From Bacteroidota bacterium (lineage in GTDB: Bacteria; Bacteroidota; Bacteroidia; Chitinophagales; Chitinophagaceae), in contig JAKPSI010000033.1 in NCBI GenBank assembly GCA_029555415.1, forward strand, positions 1-64,000: a stretch of DNA of 64,000 nucleotides, given 5' to 3'. Positions 55,790 to 63,395 of the stretch are shown in pieces. The number at the start of each line of letters is the position of its first letter. The first letter of the stretch is position 1. Both the position numbers and the translations under genes were made by a program. The notes beneath the pieces are model-generated. The model saw only the letters and a list, made by a program, of their open reading frames with translations, had not been told where the DNA came from and ran no database searches.

Positions 55790-57046
55790 TTAAATGAGAT
55801 AACCGAACAACTGATCGTTCTTATTGATCTCGGCATACCCGATGCCGCTGTCATTCATCTTTTTCATGAGCAATTCATAATCCGAACGGCTCTTGAGTTC
55901 GACACCTACCAGGGCGGGGCCGTTCTCTTTATTCGTCTTTTGCATGTATTCAAACCGGGTGATATCATCCGTAGGACCGAGCACATTGTTCACGAATTCA
56001 CGCAATGCACCGGGGCGTTGCGCGAAGCTGATGAGGAAATAGTGTTTCAGTCCTTCGTACTGCAGGCTTCTTTCCTTGATCTCCTGCATCCGGTCGATAT
56101 CGTTGTTGCTGCCACTGATGATACAGACCACGTTCTTCCCTTTGATCTGGTCCGTGTAATCATCCAGTGCGGCAACGGATAAGGCGCCCGCGGGTTCTAC
56201 CACGATGGCGTCCTCGTTGTACAATTTCAGGATGGTGCTGCACACTTTACCTTCATTCACGAGGTGCATTTCATCCAGCACGTCGCGGCATACAGCGAAA
56301 GTAAGTTCGCCCACACGTTTGACGGCAGCGCCGTCCACGAATCTTTCAATACTGTCGAGTGTCACCGGTTTGCCCGCTTCCAGTGCGCGTGTCATGGATG
56401 GAGCGCCTTCGGGTTCGAGGCCGATGATCTTTGTTTTAGGTGAGTAGGTCTTGAAGTAAGTACCCACGCCGGCGCTGAGTCCGCCGCCACCCACCGGTAC
56501 GAACATGAAATCGATCAGGGGCAGATCCTCGAGGATCTCTTTGCCTACGGTTCCCTGTCCTTCGATGATGCGGGCATCATCAAAAGGCGGGATGAAGGTC
56601 ATGCCATTTGCTTCTGTGTACCGCTGTGCAGCCACCGAGCAATCGTCGAATGTATCACCCACCAGTTGCACTTCGATGTTGTTTTCACCGAACATGCGTG
56701 TTTGTGTCACTTTCTGGTTGGGTGTAATGATGGGCATAAAAACCACGCCCTTTATGCCCAGTTTCTTACAACTCCATGCGAATCCCTGCGCATGATTGCC
56801 GGCGCTGGCACAGACCACTCCTTTGCGGAGTTGTTCCATGGGCAGCAGGCTCATCATGTTGTAGGCGCCGCGCAGTTTATAGCTGCGTACGACCTGCAGG
56901 TCTTCTCTTTTGAGATATACATTGCACTGGTACCGGCGTGACAGACTGGGGTTGAGTTGCAGGGGCGTGCGGGTTACCACCTGCTCCAGCCTGGCGGCCG
57001 CGCTGTTGATATCCAGTTGAATGTTATGTGTGATCATTTTTTCCAT
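55790..57046 (-). CDS. ilvA: Threonine dehydratase (biosynthetic)
   Basis: The 418-residue PLP enzyme converts threonine to 2-oxobutanoate, the first step to isoleucine. The PLP lysine lies in VVRSYKLRGAYNMM, with the glycine loop VPVGGGGLSAGVGT. A C-terminal ACT-like regulatory domain (about residues 325-418; FLISFAQRPGALREFVNNVL) is expected to sense isoleucine. It is the last gene of the ilv operon, 5 bp after ilvC. Confidence 0.95.
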   Translation of the reverse strand: MEKMITHNIQLDINSAAARLEQVVTRTPLQLNPSLSRRYQCNVYLKREDLQVVRSYKLRGAYNMMSLLPMEQLRKGVVCASAGNHAQGFAWSCKKLGIKGVVFMPIITPNQKVTQTRMFGENNIEVQLVGDTFDDCSVAAQRYTEANGMTFIPPFDDARIIEGQGTVGKEILEDLPLIDFMFVPVGGGGLSAGVGTYFKTYSPKTKIIGLEPEGAPSMTRALEAGKPVTLDSIERFVDGAAVKRVGELTFAVCRDVLDEMHLVNEGKVCSTILKLYNEDAIVVEPAGALSVAALDDYTDQIKGKNVVCIISGSNNDIDRMQEIKERSLQYEGLKHYFLISFAQRPGALREFVNNVLGPTDDITRFEYMQKTNKENGPALVGVELKSRSDYELLMKKMNDSGIGYAEINKNDQLFGYLI

Positions 57047-57051
57047 GCGGA

Positions 57052-58185
57052 TCAGCCGATCGACTCCGACTTTAATGCTTGTTTACGGAATACTTCCAGT
57101 GTGGAATTTGCGGGCTGCTCTGCTTTCGGAGCAGGGGTGGGCTGGTTCTCCGGACGCAGGCTGCGTACGGTTTTGCCGGCTTGCCACAGCTCGCTGTCGC
57201 GCAGTTCTTTCAGTTCCACTTCCAGTTTCTCACGATAGTCAGCCTTGCTGTTGCTGTCGATCGAACGTTGTGATTCTTTACCGGTAGCAACGCTTTCATA
57301 CAGGTCGTTGAACACAGGCAGGGTGGCATCACGGAATTTCTTCCACCAGTCGAGCGCACCACGTTGCGCGGTAGTAGAGCAGTTGGCATACATCCAGTCC
57401 ATACCATTCTCTGCAACGAGCGGCATGAGTGACTGCGTGAGTTCTTCAACGGTCTCATTGAATGCTTCGCTGGGGCTGTGGCCTTTGGAACGGAGCACCT
57501 GGTATTGTGCGGCGAAGATGCCCTGGATGGCGCCCATCAGTGTTCCGCGTTCGCCGGTGAGGTCAGAGTAAACTTCTTTTTTGAAATCTGTTTCGAACAG
57601 GTAGCCACTGCCGACAGCGATACCGAGCGCGATAACGCGGTCGAATGCTTTACCGGTAGCATCCTGATAGATGGCGTAAGAACTGTTCAGTCCGCGGCCT
57701 TGCAGGAACATACGGCGGAGTGAAGTGCCTGATCCTTTGGGAGCCACCAGGAATACGTCCACATCCTTCGGAGGAACGATGCCTGTTTGTTCGTTGAAGG
57801 TGACGCCAAAACCATGAGAGAAGTATAATGCTTTGCCGGGAGTGAGGTGTTTTTGTACGGTCGGCCATAATGCGATCTGTGCCGCGTCGCTCAGCAGGTA
57901 GCAGATGATGGTACCGCGTTGCAGGGCTTCTTCAATTTCAAAGAGGGTTTCTCCGGGAACGAATCCGTCACGGATCGCTTTGTCCCAGGTCTTGGAATCT
58001 TTACGTTGACCTACGATCACGTTGATACCATTGTCTTTCTGGTTCAGCGCCTGGCCCGGGCCTTGTACGCCGTAACCGATGACCGCAACGGTTTCATTTT
58101 TCAGCACCTCGCGTGCTTTGCTGAGGGGGAATTCTTCCCGTGTTACAACGTTTTCTTCCGTGCCTCCGAAATTTAACTTTGCCAT
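57052..58185 (-). CDS. ilvC: Ketol-acid reductoisomerase
   Basis: The 377-residue protein carries the NADPH motif VIGYGVQGPGQALNQ and the reductoisomerase core (SHGFGVTFNEQTGIVPPKDV, LFETDFKKEVYSDLTGERGT). The enzyme isomerises and reduces acetolactate and acetohydroxybutyrate. It is slightly longer than the class I enzyme of about 330 residues because of a C-terminal tail rich in Pro and Lys. Position 50 bp after ilvN and 5 bp before ilvA. Confidence 0.95.
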   Translation of the reverse strand: MAKLNFGGTEENVVTREEFPLSKAREVLKNETVAVIGYGVQGPGQALNQKDNGINVIVGQRKDSKTWDKAIRDGFVPGETLFEIEEALQRGTIICYLLSDAAQIALWPTVQKHLTPGKALYFSHGFGVTFNEQTGIVPPKDVDVFLVAPKGSGTSLRRMFLQGRGLNSSYAIYQDATGKAFDRVIALGIAVGSGYLFETDFKKEVYSDLTGERGTLMGAIQGIFAAQYQVLRSKGHSPSEAFNETVEELTQSLMPLVAENGMDWMYANCSTTAQRGALDWWKKFRDATLPVFNDLYESVATGKESQRSIDSNSKADYREKLEVELKELRDSELWQAGKTVRSLRPENQPTPAPKAEQPANSTLEVFRKQALKSESIG

Positions 58186-58235
58186 ACTGTATTGTTTTTG
58201 GTTGAGTTTTAAATATTGAGTGTTTGTGATTTTGA

Positions 58236-58826
58236 TTACATGGTGAAGATCTCTTCGTTCTGTCCGAGGAATTCGTTCTCGACGAGTTCTTCTCCGGGTT
58301 CCTGTCTTTCGAACTGTCTCAGTTTTTCGTGGAAGCCTTCGCTGGCCTTGATGATGGCCACGCGTGCGCTGCGTACGAATTCGATGAGTCCGAGTGGTTC
58401 GAGGAATTTCACCAGGCGGTCCGTTTCTTCACGGTGACCGGTGGTTTCGAAAATGGTGTAGTCCTTGCGGATCGCTACAGCACGTGCGCCGTATTCACGG
58501 AGCAGGCGTTCCACTTTCACTTTCTCGGCGATCTCGTCAGTAGAGACTTTATACAACGCGAGCTCCTGCCAAACGATCTCATCGCCGGTGTTGTAATAGG
58601 CTTTGAGCACTTCCACCTGCTTTTCGATCTGGCGGGCGAGTTTCTTGATCACCTCTTCGGTTTCATTCACCACGATGGTGAAGCGGTGAATGCCTTCCAC
58701 TTCACTGGGTGAAGTGTTCATGCTTTCGATATTGATCTTACGGCGGGAGAAGATGATAGCGATCCTGTTGAGGAGGCCCACCTGATTCTCTGTATACACC
58801 GTGATCGTGAATTCCTGTTTGCTCAT
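58236..58826 (-). CDS. ilvN: Acetolactate synthase small (regulatory) subunit
   Basis: The 196-residue protein has an N-terminal ACT domain (FTITVYTENQVGLLNRIAII, NIESMNTSPSEVEGIHRFTI) and a C-terminal regulatory domain (AVAIRKDYTIFETTGHREET). It confers feedback control by valine on the large subunit. It starts 6 bp after the ilvB stop. Confidence 0.95.
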   Translation of the reverse strand: MSKQEFTITVYTENQVGLLNRIAIIFSRRKINIESMNTSPSEVEGIHRFTIVVNETEEVIKKLARQIEKQVEVLKAYYNTGDEIVWQELALYKVSTDEIAEKVKVERLLREYGARAVAIRKDYTIFETTGHREETDRLVKFLEPLGLIEFVRSARVAIIKASEGFHEKLRQFERQEPGEELVENEFLGQNEEIFTM

Positions 58827-58832
58827 GATGAT

Positions 58833-60572
58833 TTATTTAAGTCTGATTTCAGAAACACTGCAACCCTGCGGAACCATCGGAAAAACGTTGTCTTCCTTGC
58901 CAACGCTGACTTCCAGCAGATAGGCGCCGTTATGGTCCAGCATCGTTTTCAGCGCTGCTTTTAATGCTTCTCGTTTATCGGTAGCGAATCCATCGATGTG
59001 ATATCCTTTGGCCACCTGTACGAAGTCCGGGCTTTCAATGTCCACGAATGAATAACGCTTCTCGTTGAACAGTTGCTGCCACTGGCGTACCATGCCGAGA
59101 AAATGGTTGTTCAGGATGAGGATCTTTATGTCCACTTTGTTTTGCATGACGGTGCCGAGTTCCTGGATGGTCATCTGGAAACCGCCATCACCGATCACAG
59201 CGATGACCTGTCTTTCCGGTGCGCCGAATTTGGCACCGATCGCGGCAGGTAAGGCGAAGCCCATCGTACCGAGTCCGCCGGATGTGATATTGCTCCGGGT
59301 CTTATTGAAATGCGCGTAGCGGCAGGCGACCATTTGGTGCTGACCAACGTCGGTCACGATCACCGCATCTCCTTTCGTCAATTCATTCAGTGCCGCGATC
59401 ACTTCAGCCATCGAAAGAACATCACCTTCCGGATTTTTTTCAGGATGGATACAGATCGCCTCTTCGTCTTTTTTGTATTTGTTGAAAGTATCCAGCCATT
59501 GCGGGTATACTTTCTGATCCACGAGTTTGGTCAGCAGCGGCAATGTTTCTTTGCAATCTCCCCAAACAGGAACAGTTGTCTTCACGTTCTTATCGATCTC
59601 CGCCGGATCGATATCCAGATGGATGACCTTTGCCTGTTTGGCATATTTATCAAGACGGCCGGTTACACGGTCATCGAAACGCATACCTACCGCGATCAGG
59701 ACATCGCATTCATTGGTAAGTACATTCGGACCGTAGTTGCCATGCATACCGAGCATACCCACATTGAGCGGGTGATCGGTGGGAAGGGCGCTGAGACCCA
59801 TGATGGTCCAGGCCGCGGGGATACCGGCCTTTTCGATGAAGCGCAGGAATTCTTTCTCCGCATTACCGAGTACCACACCTTGTCCGAAAACAACGAATGG
59901 TTTTTCCGCGGCATTGATCAGTTTCGCAGCTTCTTCCAGATATTCCTTTCTGACGATCGGCTTGGGACGATAGCTTCTGATATGATCACAGGGCGTGTAC
60001 CCTTCGTATTCAAATTTCTGCAGCTGCGCGTTCTTGGAGATGTCGATCAGCACAGGGCCGGGACGACCGCTGCGCGCGATGTAAAAGGCCTTGGCCAGCA
60101 CATGCGGCAATTCAGTGGCATCGGTCACCTGGTAATTCCATTTCGTAACAGGTGTCGTGATGTTGATCACATCCGTTTCCTGGAAAGCATCGGTACCGAG
60201 GAGGTGTGCGAACACCTGGCCGGTGATGCATACGACAGGAGTGGAGTCGATCATCGCGTCAGCGAGACCGGTTACAAGATTGGTGGCGCCGGGACCACTG
60301 GTGGTGAAGACCACACCCACGCGTCCGCTGGAACGGGCATAGCCCTGTGCGGCGTGGATAGCGCCCTGTTCATGACGGACGAGTATGTGCTGCAATTTCT
60401 CGCGGTAATCATACAGTGCATCATAAATGGGCATGATAGCACCACCGGGATATCCGAATAAGGTATCCACTTTTTCTGCCAGCAGTGCTTTTAACACGGC
60501 TTCAGAACCACTGATCGTTTCAGTCTTCGTCGGTGACGCAACCTTCTGCGGCTGTTGTAACGTGCTTTGCAT
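58833..60572 (-). CDS. ilvB: Acetolactate synthase large (catalytic) subunit
   Basis: The 579-residue TPP enzyme condenses pyruvate with pyruvate or 2-oxobutanoate. The catalytic Glu is in [20 protein letters not shown], the TPP motif in [20 protein letters not shown], and FAD-contact regions are present. The ATG at 60572 lies 53 bp inside the end of ilvD, and no internal ATG precedes the conserved [16 protein letters not shown] block, so the overlap appears genuine. Confidence 0.96.
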
Positions 60573-62199
60573 ATTTATAGAGAATTCCTTTATTGGCTTT
60601 TAATGCGGGCTGTTTCCATGCGGCTTTACGGGCAGCGATCTCCGCTTCCGTGACCTGCAGGGTCATTGTTTTCTTACTGACATCGATCTCGATCTTGTCT
60701 TCGTCTTTTACAATGCCGATGAGACCGCCATCGAATGCTTCGGGCGTTACGTGACCTACCACGAACCCGTGTGTACCACCGCTGAAGCGGCCATCCGTGA
60801 TCAATGCAACGGATTTGCCGAGACCTGCGCCGATGATGGCGGATGTGGGTTTCAGCATTTCAGGCATACCGGGTGCACCACGCGGACCCACATAACGGAT
60901 CACCACCACATCACCGGCTTTGATCTTACCGCTGTTGATGCCGTTGATCAGATCATGTTCCCCATCGAATACACGTGCCGGGCCCGTGAATTTTTCACCT
61001 TCCTTACCGGAGATCTTGGCCACACTGCCGCCTTCGGCGAGATTGCCGTAGAGGATCTGCAGGTGTCCGGTTTGTTTCAACGGATTTTCGAGCGGACGGA
61101 TGATCTGCTGTTTGTCAAAATCGAGATCAGGAACGTTCGCGAGGTTTTCTGCAATGGTCTTACCGGTAACGGTCATGCAATCACCATGCAGCAATCCTCT
61201 CTGCAGTAAATATTTCATCACGGCGGGGATACCACCATACTGATGCAGGTCCTGCATCAGGTATTTACCACTAGGCTTGAAATCGGCCAGTACCGGTACT
61301 TTATCACTGATGATCTGGAAATCATCTTGTGTAAAGGGAACATTCACACTTTTTGCCATGGCAATAAGGTGAAGCACAGCGTTGGTGCTGCCGCCGAGGA
61401 CCATGATCACGGTAACGGCATTCTCGAATGCCTTGCGGGTCATGATGTCGGAGGGCTTGATATCTTTTTCGAGCAGGAGCTTAATGGCTTTGCCTGCATC
61501 AGCACATTCTTTTTGTTTCTCTTCACTCAGTGCGGGATTAGAAGAAGAATACGGCAGACTCATGCCCAGTGCTTCGATCGCGCTGGCCATGGTGTTGGCT
61601 GTGTACATACCACCACAAGCGCCGGCGCCGGGGCAGGAGTGTTGTACGATGCCTTTGAAATCAGCTTCGCTGAGTTGTCCCGCGATCTTTTGTCCGAGTG
61701 CTTCAAAAGCGGAAACGATATTGAGGTCTTGTCCTTTATAATGTCCGGGAGCAATGGTACCCCCGTACACCATGATGGCGGGGCGGTTGAGCCTGCCCAT
61801 AGCGATGAGCGAACCCGGCATGTTCTTATCACATCCCGGAACCGCGATCAGTCCGTCATAATATTGTGCACCGCAAACAGCTTCAATGGAATCGGCGATG
61901 ATATCGCGGCTGACAAGCGAATAGCGCATGCCATCGGTACCATTACTCATGCCGTCACTTACACCAATGGTATTGAAGATGAGTCCGACGAGATCGTTCT
62001 GCCATACACCGGTCTTGATGGTTTTTGCGAGATCGTTGAGGTGCATGTTGCAGGTATTGCCATCGTAGCCCATGCTGACGATGCCTACCTGTGCTTTTTT
62101 CAGGTCTTCATCCGTGAGGCCGATACCATATAACATGGCCTGTGCGGCCGGTTGGGTCGGGTCTTGTGTGATCGTTCTGCTGTACTTGTTCAGTTCCAT
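60520..62199 (-). CDS. ilvD: Dihydroxy-acid dehydratase
   Basis: The 559-residue iron-sulfur enzyme makes the 2-keto acids for valine and isoleucine. Cluster-binding cysteines sit in [29 protein letters not shown] and [20 protein letters not shown]. The C-terminal [20 protein letters not shown] block is also diagnostic. It starts 1 bp after the ilvE stop, and its end overlaps ilvB by 53 bp. Confidence 0.97.
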
Positions 62200-62200
62200 G

Positions 62201-63115
62201 TTATGCTACGGCTAAGTTTGTGTTCAGATCCTGTTTCGAGTTGAAATCCTGTTCCATGACCTTTGCTTTATACGCGCGCTGGATCAGGGATCCGAGCGAG
62301 TTTTCCCATTGGAGGCGGAAGGGCACATCGTCGAGTGAAGCCAGTTCCACGACTTCCGCTGCGGTACCGCAATAGAAACCGCAATCGGCTCCGCGCATGT
62401 CATCCGGTGTGAAACGTGTTTCCTTTACGGGGATGTTCAGTTCATCACAGAGCTCCATAACGGTGGCACGGGTGATACCGGGAAGGATATTACCTTTCGC
62501 GGGTGTAAAGAGCACACCGCCTTTTTCATAGAATACATTGGCACCCGGGCCTTCAGCAACAAAGCCCTGATTGTCGAGCAGCAATGCTTCATCGTATCCG
62601 TTGTCTTTTGCTTCCTGACAGGCGAGGATGGAATTCACATAATGTCCGCTCACTTTCGCTTCCATATAAAAGCCACTGGGATTGGGGCGGCGGAAGGAAG
62701 AGGTCTTGACGCGCATTTTATTGGCGAGATACCCATTGGTCCATTCCCAGGCTTCAATGGCCAGGTGGGATTCAATGCCTTTGGTGAGTGACATGTTCGC
62801 GGAACAAACAACGATGGGGCGGATATAAGCGTCCGTGAAGTTGTTGCGGCGTAGTGTTTCGTAAGTAAGTTCAGTGAGTTCTTCCGTGGTGTGCGTGAAC
62901 GGCATTTTCATGACCGATGCCGAATAACGCAAGCGGTCATAATGTTCTTTGGCTTTGAAGATCTTCGTGCCGCCGTTGATGGGGTAGGAACGGATACCTT
63001 CAAATACGGAATAACCGTAGTGCAGCGACTGGCTGTACAGGTCGATATGGGCGTCCTTTGCTTTCACAAATTCGCCGTTGAAATAAATGATCGTGTTTTC
63101 GTTGTAATACATCAT
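62201..63115 (-). CDS. ilvE: Branched-chain amino acid aminotransferase
   Basis: The 304-residue fold-type IV PLP enzyme performs the last step of Ile, Leu and Val synthesis. Seen are the N-terminal [32 protein letters not shown], the PLP lysine region [14 protein letters not shown], and [20 protein letters not shown]. It starts at ATG 63115 (or the next codon) as first structural gene of the ilv operon. A terminator 23 bp upstream and a leader peptide control entry. Confidence 0.96.
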
Positions 63116-63137: not shown

Positions 63138-63166
63138 AAAAAAACCCGCCTCTCGGGAGGCGGGTT
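63138..63166 (-). terminator. Attenuator terminator of the ilv operon
   Basis: On the minus strand AACCCGCCTC-CCGA-GAGGCGGGTT is a perfect 10-bp stem with a 4-nt loop, followed by at least seven T residues. It lies between the leader peptide gene and ilvE. Confidence 0.92.
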
Positions 63167-63193
63167 GTTATCGTTAGTTTCTGGAATTAAACT

Positions 63194-63292
63194 TTAAGCA
63201 CCACCTCCTGATGAAGTATTGATAATAATAATGACCACCACAATAATGATTGCGGAAATAGCGGACACATTATATATCGTATTCTTCAACAT
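63194..63292 (-). CDS. ilvL: Ile/Val-rich leader peptide of the ilv operon
   Basis: The 32-codon frame starts with ATG and ends with TAA: MLKNTIYNVSAISA, then IIIVVVIIII at residues 15-24, then NTSSGGGA. Ten adjacent Ile/Val codons immediately before the terminator and the BCAA operon are the hallmark of ribosome-mediated attenuation. The end codons GGA GGT GGT carry the sequence (63201-63208) that can pair with the 5' arm of the terminator (63156-63163). When charged Ile/Val-tRNA is scarce the ribosome should stall in the run and free this segment to form the antiterminator. Gene symbol by analogy. Confidence 0.88.
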   Translation of the reverse strand: MLKNTIYNVSAISAIIIVVVIIIINTSSGGGA

Positions 63293-63308
63293 GAAGGATG
63301 TATGCTTG

Positions 63309-63316
63309 TAAATATA
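63309..63316 (-). promoter_or_regulatory. Tentative -7 box of the ilv leader transcript
   Basis: TATATTTA on the minus strand has one mismatch to TAnnTTTG and lies 16 bp upstream of the leader-peptide ATG. No clear -33 box was seen. Confidence 0.3.
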
Positions 63317-63395
63317 CACCCGCCGCGTCAAAAAAAGAACTGCAGCAAGCAATTTATTCTATAGATATACGACCGATCGTTAGGAAAATGAATTC

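Follow-up and report, generated by a model that had tools for sequence, protein, structure and literature searches.

In this Chitinophagaceae contig, ilvEDBNCA is very probably governed by a ribosome-mediated transcription attenuator in the gap between leuB and ilvE, one that responds to charged Ile- and Val-tRNA. We analyzed the window (the whole stretch of DNA under study, 64,000 nt) together with related loci. The predicted parts, a leader ORF and four RNA segments (Table 1), are conserved in relatives; the pairing of segment 2 with segment 3 (2:3) showed co-variation across lineages, and that of segment 1 with segment 2 (1:2) showed co-variation in Chitinophagaceae-type leaders. Attenuators of this kind are already known from E. 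coli, and control of such a type has been suggested earlier for Bacteroidota. Our contribution is to describe the anatomy, to trace how widely such modules occur in the phylum, and to report modules arranged in series.

In the ilvGMEDA (ilvL), trp, his, and phe attenuators of E. coli, a short ORF with runs of cognate codons precedes the cognate operon, and an antiterminator competes with the terminator. E. coli ilvL has 32 residues. The window's leader resembles it in its 32 codons, its cognate codons, its predicted competing antiterminator and terminator, and the cognate operon that follows.

Table 1. Predicted features of the ilv leader region and the genes downstream
Feature	Coordinates	Strand	Basis or remark
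T-rich −33-like element	63331-63339	minus	Sequence; putative promoter
−7-like element TATATTTA	63309-63316	minus	Sequence; predicted RNA start near 63307
Segment 1, RNA 5′ end with start codon and codons 2-3	63284-63307	minus	Fold, swap test
Leader ORF, 32 codons plus TAA	63292-63194	minus	Sequence, reading frame, conservation in relatives
Control codons 15-24, Ile3 Val3 Ile4	63221-63250	minus	ATC ATT ATT GTG GTG GTC ATT ATT ATT ATC; conserved
Segment 2, last leader codons	63196-63216	minus	Core GGAGGTGG at 63208-63201 is the predicted antiterminator strand
Segment 3, terminator 5′ arm	63157-63166	minus	63163-63156 predicted to pair with segment 2 core
Segment 4, terminator 3′ arm	63143-63152	minus	Stem prediction
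Terminator T run, seven T	63138-63144	minus	First two bases are the last two of segment 4
ilvE, first gene under proposed control	62201-63115	minus	NCBIfam PRK06606 and ilvE_I above cut-off
ilvD, ilvB, ilvN, ilvC, ilvA	55790-62199	minus	NCBIfam ilvD, acolac_lg, acolac_sm, ilvC, THD1 above cut-offs

A leader ORF with a run of Ile and Val codons

The leader ORF encodes the peptide MLKNTIYNVSAISAIIIVVVIIIINTSSGGGA. The original prediction had described a 32-codon ATG-to-TAA frame with ten successive Ile/Val codons at residues 15 to 24, and we found both where it placed them, with the run at 63250-63221. Further Ile or Val codons lie at positions 6, 9, and 12, and no Shine-Dalgarno-like stretch is present 5′ of the leader ATG in the window sequence. 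We consider that the leader exceeds chance because the run is the sole stretch of at least six consecutive Ile/Val codons in the six frames of the 64 kb and because the peptide was found again 5′ of ilvE in relatives. This predicted and conserved frame is a short ORF enriched in codons for the products of the operon.

Codon choice within the run also differed from that in ilvE. ATT made up 83% of the Ile codons in the run, against 48% and 52% in ilvE, and GTC accounted for 29% of the Val codons in the runs of Chitinophagaceae and 62% in those of other lineages, against 4% and 6% in ilvE. Since the counts were pooled across related species, so that their p-values are not independent tests, we treat this bias as descriptive only; it fits control through particular tRNAs.

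Each of the nine positions of the Ile3-Val3-Ile3 order is retained in 26 to 36 of the 36 Chitinophagaceae leaders, which is better conservation than plain codon counting requires and counts against a device that simply senses hungry codons. The same retention would be expected if ribosomes were arrested by the nascent peptide itself, Ile or Val serving as a co-signal, and not by slow decoding. We judge such an arrest very unlikely, given that other lineages show different residue orders, that the codon bias points to decoding, and that a small hairpin within the run could account for the order. That hairpin and the core of 2:3 were all that RNAalifold recovered from the alignment. In 30 of 36 leaders the hairpin equalled or exceeded the mean stability of its synonymous variants (mean z of −0.8), and because this is only slightly above those variants, we make no claim for it.

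A predicted terminator, a putative promoter, and the ilv operon

A predicted intrinsic terminator stands between the leader ORF and the first gene. It was originally described as a 10-bp GC-rich stem about 30 nt past the leader, with a T run and then ilvE, and this description held up, the spacing being 27 nt from the leader stop codon and the run consisting of seven T. The perfect stem (AACCCGCCTC/GAGGCGGGTT) closes a 4-nt loop and has a predicted stability of −18.2 kcal/mol.

Upstream of the leader lies a putative promoter, whose −33-like element we take to be of the Bacteroidota type. A related locus (L014) has TTTG-N20-TATCTTCG in the corresponding place, and the T residues of the −7-like element are partly conserved across 36 aligned leaders. 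Transcription from this promoter would begin near 63307. Because the 5′ end of the RNA participates in the predicted fold, we extend the feature to about that position, beyond the end at 63292 given originally.

Profile models matched all six ilv genes, in keeping with the ilvEDBNCA order and the leuB-ilvE gap of the original prediction. The best match of the gene 5′ of the leader was leuB, below the curated cut-off, and just the 200-residue end of this gene falls inside the window. On the same strand the leader is preceded by leuA, leuC, leuD, and leuB, the first three of them named by reading ORF starts.

The last leader codons as a predicted antiterminator strand

No antiterminator figured in the model from which this work started; we found one in the present analysis. 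The final leader codons, GGA GGT GG, are complementary to the 5′ arm of the terminator. In Chitinophagaceae the antiterminator GGAGGUGG pairs with CCGCCUCC, in Flavobacterium limnosediminis and its kin GAGUGAGUCAGGCU pairs with AGCCUUUCUCAUUC, and in Pedobacter GGCGCU pairs with AGCGCC, the same design despite differing sequence.

We measured 2:3 pairing on 76 modules selected without regard to that pairing. In 70 of them it ranked within the best 5% of 100 shuffles of the same module, and in 73 the duplex with the module's own arm was stronger than the mean with the arms of other groups. When strands were swapped among 21 similarity clusters, own pairs averaged −14.0 kcal/mol against −9.9 kcal/mol for cross pairs, and none of 5,000 permutations did as well. 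These comparisons show that the predicted antiterminator strand changes together with the terminator arm between lineages, as would befit an antiterminator that excludes the terminator and is excluded by it. Within the Chitinophagaceae group alone, 2:3 pairing was 90.3% intact, compared with 37.8 to 58.3% when the register was slid; the pairing is nearly invariant there, and we saw no covariation of 2:3 within this group. For the window by itself, the local 2:3 fold stood only moderately above shuffles (z of −2.2, 7 of 200 as good).

The position of the strand is equally regular. It begins a median of 9 nt past the last control codon, and if a ribosome at the stop codon is assumed to occupy positions −20 to +11, it overlaps this footprint by at least 5 nt in 75 of the 76 modules. 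By geometry alone, and with that assumed footprint, the antiterminator would be free when a ribosome stalls in the run and covered when one has reached the stop codon.

A likely protector helix in Chitinophagaceae-type leaders

The whole leader folded better than all of 200 shuffles (z of −5.2). The predicted fold joins AAGCAUACAUCCUUCAUGUUGAAG, at the 5′ end of the leader, to CUUCAUCAGGAGGUGGUGCUU, the same strand that serves as antiterminator. A swap test among 13 Chitinophagaceae-type clusters gave −18.2 for own 1:2 pairs against −14.7 for cross pairs, with none of 5,000 permutations as good; among 22 clusters of other Bacteroidota the same test gave no signal (−6.97 against −7.08, 2,974 of 5,000). 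Likewise, 1:2 pairing ranked within the best 5% of shuffles in 25 of 40 Chitinophagaceae-type leaders and in 2 of 36 others.

Counting 1:2 pairs in fixed alignment columns gave a mixed picture. The share of paired cells (55.3% against 52.3%, 0 of 500 shuffles as good) and the covariation score (1 of 500) exceeded shuffles, but pairs altered on both sides were no more frequent than in shuffles (10 against 10.4), and shifting the register by 3 gave a slightly higher covariation score. We think that this is because the register shifts between species, and we therefore used the alignment-free swap test in place of the count. Composition matters as well: shuffled 5′ ends, being pyrimidine rich, still paired with at least 5 nt of the antiterminator strand in 71% of trials, the genuine ones doing so in 40 of 40. 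The AUG was paired in 32 of 40 leaders against 69% for shuffles, which is not clearly higher, and since shuffled ends so often pair with segment 2 we stop short of claiming any specific burial of the start codon. On the strength of the swap test, the predicted 1:2 helix of Chitinophagaceae-type leaders, a counterpart of the trp-type protector, is likely real.

That the peptide is conserved at both ends (MLK... and ...GGGA) is likely due in part to this helix. This bears on whether the leader might instead encode a small hydrophobic peptide with an activity of its own, for instance at the membrane or as a regulator in trans. Such a peptide could explain the ten-residue hydrophobic core and the order of residues kept in Chitinophagaceae. 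The usual transmembrane helix is, however, longer than this core, the ends of the Chitinophagaceae peptide follow RNA pairing, and outside that group length and sequence vary, with only richness in Ile, Val, and Leu retained. We regard an acting peptide as quite improbable.

A proposed mechanism

From these comparisons we infer the promoter, termination, stalling, and the order of folding of the proposed attenuator. With Ile and Val plentiful, the ribosome would reach the stop codon and cover segment 2; the 3:4 terminator would then form and transcription would end before ilvE. If Ile-tRNA or Val-tRNA ran short, the ribosome would stall at codons 15 to 24, with segment 2 just downstream; segment 2 would pair with segment 3, no terminator would form, and the ilv genes would be transcribed. 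Were the leader left untranslated, segment 1 would pair with segment 2, the terminator would form, and the operon would be off.

Where the layout is of the trp type, segment 1 contains the control codons, and one stalled ribosome is enough to mask it. Here, in contrast, the nucleotides that would pair with the antiterminator are at the 5′ end of the RNA, the control codons lie in the loop between segments 1 and 2, and the leader's final codons supply the antiterminator strand. The segment 1 nucleotides concerned end at nucleotide +12 or earlier, mostly at the AUG, and in none of the 40 Chitinophagaceae-type leaders does the control run begin before codon 14, so that in all 40 the control codons fall outside segment 1. 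In these leaders the run starts at codons 14 to 24 (median of 16); in others the median start is codon 7.5, with a range of 4 to 29.

A ribosome held up at the control codons would leave segment 1 uncovered behind it and have segment 2 ahead. It is therefore conceivable, though we think it doubtful, that the Chitinophagaceae attenuator needs a queue of two ribosomes, one stalled in the run and a second waiting on the AUG. With a single stalled ribosome 1:2 could form, and the outcome would be termination; the second ribosome would mask segment 1 and permit 2:3, and the 14-codon spacer would provide just enough room for it. If this were true, the device would read Ile/Val-tRNA charging and the rate of leader initiation together, and some Flavobacteriales would instead stack up to three single-ribosome modules, cutting leakage. 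As an attenuator responding to charged tRNA, the short leader would make a compact sensor of Ile and Val. Since the mechanism requires ribosomes close behind RNA polymerase, such leaders could be used to test transcription-translation coupling in Bacteroidota directly.

Distribution of the module among relatives

Contigs were scanned with IlvE, which gave 80 loci, largely from Chitinophagaceae and Flavobacteriales, and the window was added as the 81st. A module was scored within 800 nt upstream of ilvE if it had an ATG ORF of 9 to 45 residues with six Ile, Val, or Leu in nine, a terminator within 60 nt, and a complementary strand of −8 kcal/mol or better. By this rule 66 of the 81 loci carried a leader-terminator module (59 with one, 4 with two, 3 with three), and the antisense strand yielded one match. 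No module was scored in the other 15, of which 9 also have no terminator within 250 nt (L006, L009, L034, L036, L037, L042, L046, L047, and L049). In a Chryseobacterium (L062), a member of Flavobacteriales (L063), a member of Crocinitomicaceae (L065), and a Flavobacterium (L071), the terminator is kept and a weak frame falls below the cut-offs. In two more, L056 and L058, the sole terminator is one that stands upstream of the module in their kin. Relatives that had lost the frame and kept the attenuator's terminator would speak against the original prediction; according to this breakdown, there is no such case among the Chitinophagaceae-like loci of the 81.

Compared by eye with L060, L056 lacks the promoter's −7 region, all of the leader, and the terminator apart from its end. 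It is either a natural attenuator-less allele or an assembly fault.

The hairpin could also be read as a plain terminator of the leu genes, with the ORF incidental to it. It does lie between leuB and ilvE, behind the leuA-C-D-B run. Yet a leu terminator would need no co-varying strand in the preceding ORF, the leader, its Ile/Val richness, the complementary strand, and the spacing recur in the 66 loci, even with unrelated sequences, and where the module is absent the terminator is mostly absent too. This alternative is hardly credible.

To cover more of the phylum, we sampled 70 ilvD loci, 30 of them automatic (the window's own genome included) and 40 from hand-chosen stretches. Module matches occurred in 28 of the 70, all on the strand of the gene and none on the opposite strand; at least two of the 28 (L089 and L143) appear spurious by eye. 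In the 30 automatic loci the upstream flanks were about 1,500 nt, so more distant leaders were missed. In family f5, which we take to be Flavobacteriaceae, a Flavobacterium ilvE query reached the cut-off in just 3 of 60 genomes, and we therefore turned to ilvD, where 19 of 40 loci carried a module, 5 of them a double one, with no antisense match. Taken together, the ilvE, ilvD, and f5 counts suggest that Bacteroidota are widely, though not universally, equipped with such leaders.

Leaders of distinct types precede ilvD in two further families, MLSTVISLVIIRVIGITYRPGKALC-like in f21 and with more leucine in f8 (examples are L108, L114, L127, and L128). Judged from these, some lineages may also sense leucine.

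Leaders for other amino acids in the same genome

Three further biosynthetic genes of this genome are preceded by a leader ORF, a terminator-like hairpin, and a T run. A His leader, MYTFNHTHHHTALPG, precedes hisG (L157:3772-3873, contig C79); a Phe/Tyr leader, MTKGYRWFYFYFFYFKMKPGLLCLKLS, precedes pheA (L158:3938-4078, contig C96); and a Trp leader, MKQVITNQQWWWHTNSSGVL, precedes trpE (L162:2615-2740, contig C128). Each has a strand complementary to the 5′ arm of its hairpin, with 8 (hisG), 0 (pheA), and 5 (trpE) of 500 shuffles as good. Counted back from the end of the stop codon, this strand starts at 7 nt in the his leader and at 19 nt in the trp leader. In the pheA leader it lies 32 to 21 nt before that point, outside the assumed footprint, which counts against the model there. 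No terminator was found upstream of leuA, and the same rule gave no leader before two homoserine dehydrogenase genes.

That the residues fit the pathway in four operons speaks strongly, and independently, for an attenuator. Together with the modules upstream of ilvE and the co-varying antiterminator, these cognate leaders bear out the Ile/Val-sensing attenuation originally proposed for the ilv genes, and they indicate that leader-peptide control of amino acid operons is widespread in Bacteroidota, if not found in every member.

We put next to no weight on an RNA that senses tRNA or a metabolite directly (a T-box or riboswitch) with no need of translation, as alternative structures are indeed present but both the run of Ile/Val codons and an antiterminator so close to the stop codon call for a ribosome. 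A T-box or other Rfam cis-regulator was also rejected by search: the 64-kb window contained no Rfam match at the gathering threshold. Nor did five further loci, including the three with the trpE, hisG, and pheA leaders.

Relation to known attenuators

Vitreschak et al. reportedly predicted, in 2004, attenuators for branched-chain, His, Thr, Trp, and Phe operons, and their abstract is said also to mention Bacteroidetes/Chlorobi. Nearer to the window in content is the ilvB-II motif of Corynebacterium ilvBNC, for which the available text describes a branched-chain-rich uORF with a terminator and an antiterminator before ilv genes, much as in the window, and a lacZ reporter that supports regulation (PMC10272879). 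As described there, it differs in belonging to Actinobacteria, in having usually 15 to 17 residues, and in preceding ilvB; we liken the two by description, not by sequence. For Streptomyces ilvB, the accessible part of one report states that altering the control codons had no effect (PMC1262725), which is a caution for all predictions of this type.

Closer in phylogeny, a study of Flavobacterium psychrophilum, from the same phylum as the window's leader, gives, in the text available, strong clues for leader-peptide attenuation before amino acid operons and names pheA and hisG 5′ elements as present in other genera (PMC9723704). As available, its main text contains no ilv word, and its section on attenuation contains no antiterminator anatomy, covariation, or serial modules. 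In Bacteroides thetaiotaomicron, sORFs resembling leader peptides are mentioned in the accessible portion of another study (PMC7366714). The Bacteroid-trp motif (RF01692), a candidate cis-regulatory RNA of Bacteroidetes named for trp, appears once, in a table, in the available main text of its source (PMC2864571), and at the gathering threshold Rfam gave no match to it in the window or in the stretches with the trpE, hisG, and pheA leaders. The available parts of three further papers describe no ilv leader of Bacteroidota (PMC4833913, PMC6429828, and PMC8305728). Our literature search as a whole, with most subscription papers outside its reach, returned no detailed description of one.

Serial modules upstream of ilvE and ilvD

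Some Flavobacteriales carry several leader-terminator modules in a row. Three precede ilvE in Flavobacterium limnosediminis (L059), Aequorivita sinensis (L061), and Myroides phaeus (L076). A Marixanthomonas (L068) has two with ATG starts and a third if a GTG start is permitted. Two modules precede ilvE in L024, L028, and a Chryseobacterium locus (L030). In L059 and L061 a promoter-like site of the Bacteroidota type precedes the first module but none of the later ones; in L068 and L076 this pattern was not found at all. A targeted literature search, judged by titles, brought up no earlier report of serial leader-peptide modules. With such arrays one could test how stacking attenuators makes a response sharper. 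Among the ilvD loci, two or three serial modules were seen in L097, L106, L124, L165, L178, and L180.
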